A stretch of 64,000 nucleotides of DNA. Origin: an uncultured bacterium (lineage in GTDB: Bacteria > Bacillota > Clostridia > Lachnospirales > Lachnospiraceae). Of this stretch, positions 2,602 through 61,425 are shown piece after piece; the stretch's first letter is position 1, and each line of letters begins with the position of its first letter. The translations under genes and the position numbers were made by a program. The notes under the pieces are model-generated. The model was not told the origin of the DNA and searched no databases. It saw only the letters and a program-made list of their open reading frames with translations. Where the stretch lies: assembly GCA_947647735.1 (NCBI GenBank), contig CANSLJ010000004.1, positions 1 to 64,000 of the forward strand, read 5' to 3'.

Positions 2602-2667
2602 ATGAATACTGATATTATAAAACTATCGTATTAATATTAATGAACATATTTAGCCAAAATTCAGCAG

Positions 2668-2793
2668 TCAGCGAATAAATGCCCTGTGAAGGCTGTAGAA
2701 AAACGCCGGCACTTGGCGAGGTATTTTCGAGCCTAGTACCGCTGCGTTTTTCTCCAAGCGAGAGCATGCCTGAACAGGGCATTTATTCGCTGA
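2668..2793. repeat. Long inverted-repeat element A with conserved core
   Basis: A perfect 20-bp inverted repeat (2668-2687 and 2774-2793, TCAGCGAATAAATGCCCTGT on the left) encloses an inner stem GAAAAACGC/GCGTTTTTC and a 47-bp core (2702-2748). The reverse complement of the core matches the core of element B (7850-7896) at 42 of 47 positions, while the arms of the two elements are unrelated. It fills most of the gap between tyrA and the EF-G-like gene. A 61-codon ORF across it is a by-product of the repeat. Confidence 0.85.
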
Positions 2794-2851
2794 ATGCGTC
2801 CGATTTCACCATATTTCCCACAAAAAAACTGGTAAAAATGAATAATCACTC

Positions 2852-5250: not shown

Positions 5251-7779
5251 ATGTCTGAAGTTTATAACCACAGAGAAGTGGAACAAAAATGGCAGAGGAT
5301 ATGGGATGATGAGCAGGCTTTTGCCACATCGGAGGATTACAGTAAACCGAAGTATTACGCGCTGGTGGAATTTCCTTATCCGTCAGGGCAGGGGCTCCAT
5401 GTGGGGCATCCGAGGCCTTATACGGCGATGGACATCGTGTCCCGTAAGCGCAGGATGCAGGGGTATAACGTGCTGTTTCCGATGGGCTGGGATGCCTTTG
5501 GACTGCCTACGGAGAATTACGCGATCGCAAACAAGATCCATCCGAAGATCGTCACAAAGAACAATGTGGAACGGTTCAAGGAGCAGCTCCATTCTCTGGG
5601 ATATTCTTTTGACTGGAACAGGGAGATCAATACCACGGATCCGGAATACTATCACTGGACACAGTGGATCTTTTTGCAGCTTTTCAAGAGGGGGCTCGCT
5701 TATAAAGCGGAGATGCCGATCAACTGGTGTACCTCCTGTAAGGTCGGGCTTGCCAATGAGGAAGTGGTGAACGGCGTGTGCGAACGCTGCGGCGCTGAGG
5801 TGATCCGGAAGGTGAAGAGCCAGTGGATGCTGAAGATCACGGATTATGCGGAGAAGCTGATCGAGGGCCTTGAGGGCGTTGACTATGTGGAAAAGATCGC
5901 AGTGTCCCAGAAAAACTGGATCGGGAAGTCCAAGGGGGCGGAAGTGGATTTTTCCATTGCTGGAAAAGAAGACAAACTGCGGGTTTACACGACGAGATGC
6001 GATACATTGTTCGGGGCTACTTATATGGTGGTTTCTCCGGAGCATCCGATCCTGGATAAATATAAAGCGGAGATCAAAAACTGGGATGATGTGGAGCGCT
6101 ACAGAGAGCAGGCGGCGAAGAAGTCTGATTTTGAGCGTTCTGAACTGGCAAAGGATAAGACCGGCGTGGTGCTTGACGGACTTTTTGCGGTGAATCCGGT
6201 CAATCAAAAGGAGATTCCGATCTTTGTGTCGGATTATGTACTCATGAGCTACGGTACGGGCGCGATCATGGCGGTGCCCGCTCATGATGAGAGGGACTGG
6301 GATTTTGCGAAAAAGTTCCATCTCCCGATCGTGGAAGTGGTAGCCGGCGGCGAGGATGTTCAGAAAAAAGTATATACGGATGTGGAAAGCGGCATTCTGG
6401 TTAATTCTGACTTTCTGGACGGTATGCCTGTGGCGGCGGCGAAGGAGCGCATGATCCAGTATCTGGAATCCAAGGGTATCGGTAAGGAAAAGACAAACTA
6501 TAAACTCCGTGACTGGGTATTTTCCAGACAGCGCTACTGGGGTGAGCCGATCCCGGTTGTGCACTGTGAAAAATGCGGTTATGTGGCAATTCCGGAGAGC
6601 GAACTGCCTTTAGAGCTGCCGGATGTGGACAGTTATATGCCGACTGACACAGGGGAATCGCCTCTGTCAGCAATGACTGATTGGGTCAATACCACTTGCC
6701 CCTGCTGCGGCGGGCCGGCGAAGAGAGAGACGGATACCATGCCTCAGTGGGCGGGTTCCTCCTGGTATTTCCTGCGTTACACAGATCCGAAGAATGACAG
6801 GGCGCTTGCCAGCAAGGAAGCACTCGATTACTGGATGCCGGTTGACTGGTACAACGGCGGTATGGAGCATACCACACTGCATCTGTTGTATTCCAGATTC
6901 TGGCACAAGTTCCTCTATGATGAGAAGGTGGTGCCCTGTCCGGAACCTTACCAGAAACGTACGTCCCATGGAATGATCCTTGGACTGAATCCTCACAGCT
7001 TCTCCAATCTGCCCGCGCAGGAGCAGAAGAAACTGCTGGAAGAATGCGGCAGCGAGGAGGCGGCAAGGGCTGCTCTCAGAGAAAAATTCGGTGAGATGGC
7101 GGATCATCCGGTGGTGAAGATGTCCAAGTCTCTTGGAAACGTGGTAAATCCGGATGATATCGTCAGGGATTATGGTGCGGATACGCTGCGTACCTATGAA
7201 ATGTTCATCGGCGCTTTTGACTTGAGCGCAGGATGGAGCGAGGACGGCGTAAAGGGCTGCCGGAGATTTCTGGAGCGTGTCTGGAAACTGCAGGATATCA
7301 TGACGAAGGAAGAAGGTTACAGTGCGGATCTGGAGACAAAGATGCACCAGACCATCAAGAAAGTGAGCGGCGATTACGAAAACCTGAAGTTCAACACAGG
7401 CATTGCGGCGATGATGGCGCTGATCAATGAGTTTTACCGGAAGAATGCGGTCACAAAGGGTGAGTACAAGACACTGCTCGCACTGCTGAATCCTGTGGCG
7501 CCTCATATGACGGAGGAACTTTGGCAGACGATCGGGGAAGAGGGACACCTCTATAACCAGAGCTGGCCGGAGTTTGAGGAGGCGAAGACGGTTGAATCTA
7601 CGATAGAGATCGCTGTGCAGATCAACGGAAAAGTCCGCGGCACGATGAATATCGGGAAGGATGATCCGAAGGAGGAGATCATTGCCAGAGCGAAAGAGAT
7701 GATGGCGGATCGGATCACCGGGACGATCGTGAAGGAGATTTATGTGCCGGGGAGACTGGTTAATATAGTGCAGAAGTAA
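5251..7779 (+). CDS. leuS: Leucyl-tRNA synthetase
   Basis: Charges tRNA-Leu with leucine. It is an 842-residue class Ia synthetase with the HIGH-type motif HVGHP at 50-54 and KMSKS at 623-627. A zinc-binding-like CTSC...CERC segment follows the first half of the catalytic domain. The CP1 editing domain is present ([22 protein letters not shown]). A segment of about 45 residues just before KMSKS (around [10 protein letters not shown] to EKFGEMADH) accounts for length beyond a ~805-residue bacterial enzyme. GGGAGG lies 7 bases before the start. It is transcribed alone from its own promoter and followed by element B. Confidence 0.98.
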
Positions 7780-7795: not shown

Positions 7796-7938
7796 GATGC
7801 CGTCAGGCGGTTATATATCCTTTCCATGCCACGCTTGCGCTTCGGGCGCGACGCAGCGGTACTAAGCTCGAAAATACCTCGCTAAGTACCGGCGTCTTGC
7901 AGAGGCATGGAAAGGATATATAACCGTCTGGCGGCATC
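7796..7938. repeat. Long inverted-repeat element B with conserved core
   Basis: Thirty-five-base arms at 7796-7830 and 7904-7938 are reverse complements with two differences, and both differences are G-T pairs, so all 35 positions could pair in RNA. Between them lies a 47-bp core (7850-7896) that itself folds (GACGC / GCGTC ends, GGTACT / AGTACC inside). The core equals the reverse complement of the element A core except for five bases; the first and last core bases change together (G-C here, A-T in A). It starts 16 bases after the leuS stop codon. No T-run follows, so it is not a simple terminator. Confidence 0.88.
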
Positions 7939-60555: not shown

Positions 60556-61251
60556 ATGGAACGGATTTTGGTGGTGGAAGATGATTTAATGCTCAGCACC
60601 GGGCTTTGCTTTGAACTGGATTCGGCAGGATATGCCACGCAGGCGGCATATAATTGCAAAAAGGCGGAATATCTTATGGAAAAGGAGAAGTTTTCTCTTG
60701 TGATCCTGGATATCAATCTGCCCGATGGAAACGGTTTTGACTTGTGCAAGAAGATAAAGGATAGAAATAATGACATTCCTGTCATTTTTTTGACGGCGAA
60801 TGATCTGGAGGAAGACGTTTTAAACGGCTATGATATGGGCGCGGAGGATTATATCACGAAGCCCTTCCGTATGCCGATCCTGCTGAAGCGGGTGGAAGTG
60901 GCGCTGCGTCATGGCGGAACGGCATCAGAAAAGCAGGGAAATACAGACTGCTGGCAGGATGATTTTCTGCAGATCGATTTCGATGCCCTGACTGCGCTGC
61001 GGGGAGGCGAAAAGCTGTCTGTTACGCCGAATGAGTATAAGCTGCTCCGGGTGCTGACTGCCAATGCGGGTAATGTGGTCACAAGAAAACTGCTGCTGGA
61101 GAAGCTCTGGGACTGTGACGGGAATTTTATCGATGATCATACGCTGACCGTCACGATGAACCGGCTGAGAGCGAAGATCGAGGATGAAGAGCATACTTAT
61201 ATCAAGACGGTGCGTGGGCTTGGGTATGTATGGGAAAACAACCAGACATGA
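60556..61251 (+). CDS. OmpR-family response regulator (Bce type)
   Basis: A 231-residue regulator. The receiver domain has Asp9/Asp10, the phosphorylated Asp52 (LDINLP) and Lys102 (TKPF). The C-terminal winged helix includes the transactivation loop and TVRGLGYVW at the end. With the downstream kinase that lacks an extracellular sensor and an ABC transporter it fits the BceRS-type systems that sense antimicrobial peptides through the transporter. The last codons are part of a tandem repeat (61223-61425). Confidence 0.94.
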   Translation: MERILVVEDDLMLSTGLCFELDSAGYATQAAYNCKKAEYLMEKEKFSLVILDINLPDGNGFDLCKKIKDRNNDIPVIFLTANDLEEDVLNGYDMGAEDYITKPFRMPILLKRVEVALRHGGTASEKQGNTDCWQDDFLQIDFDALTALRGGEKLSVTPNEYKLLRVLTANAGNVVTRKLLLEKLWDCDGNFIDDHTLTVTMNRLRAKIEDEEHTYIKTVRGLGYVWENNQT

Positions 61252-61425
61252 TGGAACTATATCGGCGCCGAGCGGAGCGAGTGTGCATCGTGAAGCGTAC
61301 CATGTCTGAAAGACACGGTATGTATGAGAAAACAACTAGGTATGATGGAACTATATCGGCGCCGAGCGAAGTGAGTGTGCATCGCGAAGCGTACCATGTC
61401 TGAAAGACATGGTATGTATGGGAAA
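61223..61425 (+). repeat. 94-bp tandem repeat at the regulator-kinase junction
   Basis: Unit 1 (61223-61316) and unit 2 (61317-61410) are near-identical, and a 15-base partial third unit follows. Unit 1 begins inside the last ten codons of the regulator gene. Each unit holds a hairpin (TACCATGTCT GAA AGACATGGTA, one G-T pair in unit 1) and the palindrome CGGCGCCG. The repeat fills the gap between regulator and kinase. Confidence 0.88.

Follow-up and report, generated by a model that had tools for sequence, protein, structure and literature searches.

A MITE-like hairpin repeat family of Lachnospiraceae with a conserved core and locus-specific arms that remain complementary

Introduction

Hairpin repeats such as bcr1, ERIC, Correia and the like are dispersed imperfect palindromes of 100–200 bp. 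By that description they resemble the family reported here, which also consists of dispersed imperfect palindromes and has two copies in the window (the whole analysed stretch of 64,000 nt from an uncultured Lachnospiraceae bacterium). We know of no conserved core with locus-specific arms in bcr1, ERIC or Correia. Bacterial MITEs associated with DDE insertion sequences (IS) provide a second point of comparison: the family is like them in its short length, terminal repeats (TIRs), target duplications (TSDs) and an IS with like ends in the same genus, whereas in the window's genome TIRs can no longer be recognised on copies whose inner palindrome is still near-perfect, and the structured core is common to genera whose outer ends differ, as read by eye.

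REP repeats of the GTAG/CGTC type are reported to have stems of 5–13 bp within units of 20–40 bp (PMC3733652). The present family shares with REPs a high copy number and an extragenic position mainly downstream of genes, and the left side of its hairpin foot is frequently GTAG, GCAG or CCAG, the right side CGTC. It differs in its median of 23 paired bases, in its three-way junction and in not tracking Y1 matches; neither by stem length nor by a RAYT link is it a REP.

Two studies describe template switching at inverted repeats as homogenising arms and inverting spacers (PMC8604942; PMC8794818). Arm homogenisation (hairpin maintenance, PMC8794818) and spacer inversion (PMC8604942) are common to those cases and ours; those cases, however, concern individual loci, in RNA genes and in yeast genes, where the inverted spacers amount to 2–5 substitutions, whereas here one repeat family is involved and the inverted unit is 87 bp. 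Among the papers listed by our literature searches, we recognised none dealing with this hairpin repeat family.

Copies A and B in the window

Copy A (whole hairpin element 2664–2797, plus strand) has a 5′ arm at 2668–2687 that is perfectly complementary over 20 bp to its 3′ arm at 2774–2793, in agreement with the preliminary description. Between the arms lie the conserved core hairpin (2702–2748) and a small hairpin, AAGC-GAGA-GC (2756–2765), with a GNRA-type loop at 2760–2763. Copy B (7796–7938, minus strand) starts 17 nt beyond the end of an ORF at 5251–7779, which we take to encode a leucyl-tRNA synthetase-like protein; its arms (5′ arm 7904–7926, 3′ arm 7808–7830) are perfect over 23 bp within a 35-bp pair of 94% complementarity. 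The core of copy A and that of copy B (7850–7896, minus strand) match at 42 of 47 positions in inverted orientation, as had been described, and this was the window's top match on either strand. Copies A and B folded far better than dinucleotide shuffles, with z values of −9.3 and −11.7, respectively, and for each copy 0 of 200 shuffles folded as well.

Neither a TIR nor a TSD was recognisable at copy A or copy B. Copy A sits between two divergent ORFs, and at this site the element was absent in all 8 other genomes of the genus, with flanks too diverged for an exact reading of the empty site; filled/empty pairs sought elsewhere in the genus failed for the same reason. The arms had been described as unlike, which held for copy A against copy B but not generally, since some other copies of this genome are similar to copy A in their arms as well; the best of these reaches 88% over query positions 1–129.

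Elsewhere in the window, at 61223–61410, we observed two 94-bp tandem units that are 91% identical and contain GAGCGRAGYGAGTGTGCATCG; tandem repeats somewhat like these occur in G004 (L064) between the genes that flank copy A.

Copy number, distribution and gene context

A BLAST search of the window's genome with copy A returned 42 rows corresponding to 40 distinct places (40/71 candidates scored). A covariance model built from 31 copies, with 150 candidates scored per genome, matched in 8 of the 9 genomes of the genus: 89 times in the window's genome (G000), 148 in G004, 26 in G005, 12 in G007, 8 in G001, 4 in each of G006 and G008, 3 in G002, and zero times among the candidates of G003. Because palindromic copies can match on both strands, as did 21 of the 87 matches in one scan of the model, the values of 89 and 148 may count some copies twice; the window's genome has at least 69 distinct places (66 plus three weaker ones) and G004 at least 69 among the matches listed. 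Across the family, 64 of 150 genomes carried the element (20 candidates scored per genome), and sampling of the whole class gave matches in 7 of 291 genomes, all 7 of them in the same family (10 candidates scored per genome). The family of repeats is a large one.

Gene context was judged from open reading frames only. Of the copies that could be placed, 39 of 64 in the window's genome and 57 of 79 elsewhere had their 3′ end toward the next gene's stop codon; for the 5′ end the counts were 24 and 23, respectively. The gap between element and stop codon was frequently 10–45 nt. Copy A, flanked by divergent ORFs, is an exception. Relatives with a copy no more than about 3.2 kb from the leuS-like gene included Lachnospiraceae bacterium GAM79 and Lachnospiraceae bacterium G11 (5 matches among 80 loci). 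The G11 element (L481, 5647–5798) lies just beyond the leuS-like gene, matching copy B in both position and orientation.

Architecture of the element

The hairpin stands on a foot whose left side is often CCAG, GCAG or GTAG and whose right side is often C-GTCC or C-GGAC. Above it, a variable outer stem leads through an internal loop, with tandem G-A in one subtype, to a three-way junction bearing the core hairpin (ACGYCRGYRCTTRRYGAG ... CRARYYTAGTRYYGCTRCGT, read by eye) and the small hairpin. In the window's genus, a loop of the small hairpin could be recognised in all but 6 of 147 copies, and 137 of these 141 loops were GNRA; outside the genus, 73 of 75 copies had a GNRA loop and the other 2 gave no loop. 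The apical loops of the core hairpin are variable and may bear additional hairpins. Paired bases ranged up to a maximum of 83 around the median of 23 (190 of 201 copies measured), and one copy had 79 bases paired over 82. The consensus fold comprised 43 pairs, with two-sided change in 30. The conservation of the core and the variation of self-complementary arms, first noticed in two copies, were recovered in other genera.

At gathering threshold, Rfam returned nothing in the window, and at 8 further loci, searched with E up to 5, elements of other genera drew only miRNA matches far below threshold. An intrinsic terminator was rejected as the conserved function, since the core hairpin in G000 is flanked by A5/T5 tracts that several other genera do not conserve (by eye).

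A second, nested repeat was also seen in two species: an extra hairpin of type GGCTCTTGARRAACAGAGCC, or its complement, stands beside or replaces the small GNRA hairpin (L132 4257, L133 3773, L172 8555, L174 7917, L287, L290 and L291). Separately, a palindrome, TAACAGTTCAGCC...GGCTGAACTGTTA, surrounds elements L283, L286, L174, L151, L336 and L337 in G004 and G123, whole or in part, and these elements seem to be inserted within another repeat family.

Terminal repeats, target duplications and a candidate helper

Twelve copies in G001, G004, G005 and G008, selected by the TIR pattern itself, bear CAATGTCATTWAGTTAAC-like terminal repeats 89 to 243 bp apart; one of them, L285, has a partial core and another, L293, has none. 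L293 (G005) is an 89-bp copy in which TIRs and arms are present and the core is absent. In 7 of these 12 copies the flanking 10-mers agreed at no fewer than 8 positions, versus 1 of 132 mismatched pairings, a spacing of 10 being best; in two further copies, L282 and L286, 9-bp duplications with a one-base shift were noted by eye. The TIRs on complete congener copies, and the 10-bp target duplications on most of those read, indicate that these moved as DNA elements lacking a gene of their own, and the position of the arms inside both TIRs and TSDs makes the arms part of the element. By TIR and TSD, the intact congener copies are MITEs; the initial impression that the element is unlike a transposon was thus wrong for the congeners.

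An IS of 1680 bp in G006 has ends CAATGTCATTTAGATAAG, which are like the MITE ends, and encodes a DDE_Tnp_1 protein of 437 aa. An IS of this kind, with ends like those of the MITE and a transposase of the DDE type, would be the helper that mobilises it. Relatives of the IS transposase were found in 2 of the 9 genomes of the genus and are absent from the copy-rich G000 and G004 assemblies. Mobilisation by RAYT/Y1 was rejected because Y1 matches do not follow element matches: G005 has 26 element matches and 0 Y1 matches, G006 has 4 and 13, respectively, and the window's assembly holds a Y1 fragment only.

The same structured core was found by eye in genera with differing outer ends, as in G059, where these read GGGTGGGGAAA. 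What is left of the outer ends in the window's genome is TATTAAYACCACAAYCCAG-like flanks (107 copies used), while most arms are near-perfect. Presence and absence at orthologous sites were visible in the genus of G094, G159 and G160, where one or another of the genomes has no element at L390, L391, L395, L397 and L398, with gain and loss unpolarised; at L395, G160 lacks both arms, likewise unpolarised.

Core orientation at orthologous sites

The core is present in at least two of G094, G159 and G160 at 11 sites, and its orientation differs at four of these (L392, L396, L399 and L400). The inverted unit at the four sites appeared as 87-bp minus-strand matches of 91–98% identity, with arms and flanks unmoved; at L400, unequal inner parts of the arms were also exchanged (by eye). 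The inversions were seen in assembled sequence, in assemblies of 60–70 contigs in which assembly error is possible; at L399 in G094 the ungapped arm pair is just 13 bp, which we think is too short to fool an assembler. G159 was unmappable at L390 and L395, and 1 of the 15 query pieces (L388) found nothing. In the window's genus, core inversion was seen in 0 of 15 ortholog comparisons, by strands and BLAST directions.

Drift of the arms between orthologs and within genomes

Arm pairing is maintained at the DNA level. Nine ortholog comparisons from the window's genus covered 213 arm pairs, of which 28 had changed: 22 in both partners and 6 in a single one. The two arms thus change jointly. Arm divergence was lower than flank divergence in 8 of the 9 comparisons, the exception being L185/L187 (3 of 24 arm pairs changed versus 3.8% of flank sites). 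These comparisons excluded same-site pairs of differing subtype, namely L041/L149, L012/L162, L125/L172, L138/L164, L136/L186 and L134/L181. At each of these six orthologous sites, two species hold elements of different subtype, a pattern that would fit replacement of the core in place or a hot spot at the site.

Ten comparisons among G094, G159 and G160, which are closely related, yielded 4 arm pairs changed on both sides and 15 changed on one side, of which 5 were G-T, 6 A-C and 4 other. We interpret the one-sided excess to mean that mismatches form first and become resolved afterwards; with 15 one-sided against 4 two-sided changes, homogenisation is not quick. At L389, comparison of G094 with G159 revealed a length change shared by both arms of one ortholog.

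Within genomes, mean identities between copies (ungapped except in the loop, which lowers the values) separated core from arms. In G094 (7 copies) they were 1.00 and 0.97 for the core, 1.00 for the loop, 0.52 for the arms and 0.28 outside; in G074 (5 copies), 0.98 and 0.91 for the core, 0.70 for the loop, 0.36 for the arms and 0.29 outside; and in G068 (10 copies), 0.72 and 0.61 for the core, 0.28 for the arms and 0.25 outside. Arm identity between copies was at background in G065 and G104, and in the recent burst of G059 (7 copies) it was 0.82. The core is thus almost fixed in G094 and G074 with arms far apart, while in the other genomes both vary, the arms more. Either arm drift outpaces core drift, or copies homogenise their cores.

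Discussion

We consider it probable that copies A and B belong, as old members, to a Lachnospiraceae MITE-like hairpin family in which template switching homogenises the arms and can flip the core. The outer terminal repeats can no longer be recognised in the window's genome, while the inner arms drift in sequence yet remain complementary. The hairpin or cruciform may let the replicating polymerase switch template between the arms; such a switch would copy the changes of one arm onto the other and might reverse the core. Template switching, whose action here we infer, would jointly explain the paired drift, the absent G-U bias and the core inversion. Conservation of the core across genera indicates that something selects or homogenises it, and candidate keepers are recognition by the mobilising machinery or transposase or by a hairpin protein, gene conversion among copies, or a transcript.

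Several results weigh against this explanation. Copies A and B have neither TIR nor TSD, and relatives of the IS transposase were found in 2 of 9 genomes, neither of them the copy-rich G000 or G004. All 15 comparisons in the window's genus were free of core inversion, and among G094, G159 and G160 one-sided changes outnumber two-sided ones, 15 to 4. Arms that are less diverged than flanks in 8 of 9 comparisons imply more constraint than free drift with copying predicts, and the strand-specific GNRA loops suit RNA more than DNA.

That same constraint on the arms would be expected if selection acted directly on the hairpin or cruciform as DNA, for instance because a protein binds there, with ordinary point mutation followed by compensation. 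Equal G-T and A-C counts (given below) also suit selection on both strands. We nevertheless regard this account as rather unlikely, because each change requires two independent mutations and because such selection alone yields neither core inversion nor a length change in two arms.

A structured RNA, either a 3′ UTR element or a small RNA, in which selection on the fold keeps the arms paired, is an unlikely reading despite strong covariation (two-sided change in 30 of the 43 predicted pairs), the GNRA loops (137 of 141 recognised in the genus, 73 of 75 elsewhere) and the 3′ end turned toward a stop codon (39 of 64 and 57 of 79 placed copies). Selection on RNA should tolerate G-U. The arms, however, held 3379 Watson-Crick pairs with isolated mismatches of 21 G-T, 21 A-C and 32 other (136 of 147 copies), so that G-T is not in excess of A-C, and G-T accounted for 0 of the 6 one-sided arm changes in the window's genus. 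Core stems (206 of 222 copies scored) contained 14 G-T against 82 A-C, 62 of the latter being one recurrent C-A pair; without that pair the counts are 14 and 20. The recurrent C-A is G-U on the opposite strand and may be read as favouring RNA from that strand. Core orientation varies between orthologous sites in one genus, and no Rfam family falls on an element in the window or at the 8 further loci. The suggestion of a structured RNA whose outer stem is free to vary explains the arms poorly (G-T 21 against A-C 21, no G-T among six one-sided changes in the window's genus against 5 of 15 in the genus of G094, G159 and G160, and in the latter genus a core that flips); the core itself may have an RNA role, given its GNRA loops.

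The core could also be a selected, self-contained module residing in the loops of long palindromes, which keeps its host hairpin by provoking template switching and has spread across the bacterial family inside unrelated MITE ends. We hold this to be improbable; if true, the arms would be disposable, locus-specific housing in which the core turns freely, and the repeat would be maintained by the mutational process that it provokes.

The proposal that insertion copies flanking DNA into a second, inverted arm appears very improbable. It draws on arms that, from copy to copy, are no more alike than background in G068, G065 and G104, on the copy with 79 paired bases over 82 and on L329 in G160, where the left arm alone is fused exactly to the right flank at ATTTAT, a 6-bp direct repeat. 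L329 by itself could be an ancestral site and would be readable in this way. However, the site is occupied in G094 and G159, the junction at a direct repeat is deletion-like, and G160 has further one-armed or core-less remnants at L389, L393 and L398, so that L329 is better read as a deletion, and inverted copying of the target was rejected there. Furthermore, congener arms lie within TIRs and TSDs, and identical arms recur at several G004 loci (11 of 147 copies skipped). The arms are thus probably not copied from the target. Least probable of all is a dedicated site-specific invertase that flips the core: the four inversions do all span the same 87-bp unit, but their breakpoints fall, by eye, in the arms, which differ between loci.

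Returning to template switching in a MITE-like family, the wider meaning concerns how paired change is interpreted. Compensatory changes in stems are usually taken to prove a selected RNA fold. Here, strong covariation stands without a G-U signature and, in one genus, together with inversion of the loop, which makes the family a natural test bed for mutation-driven versus selection-driven pairing and a caution for covariation-based RNA discovery. Its many repeated loci could also allow the rate of template switching to be measured in bacteria.
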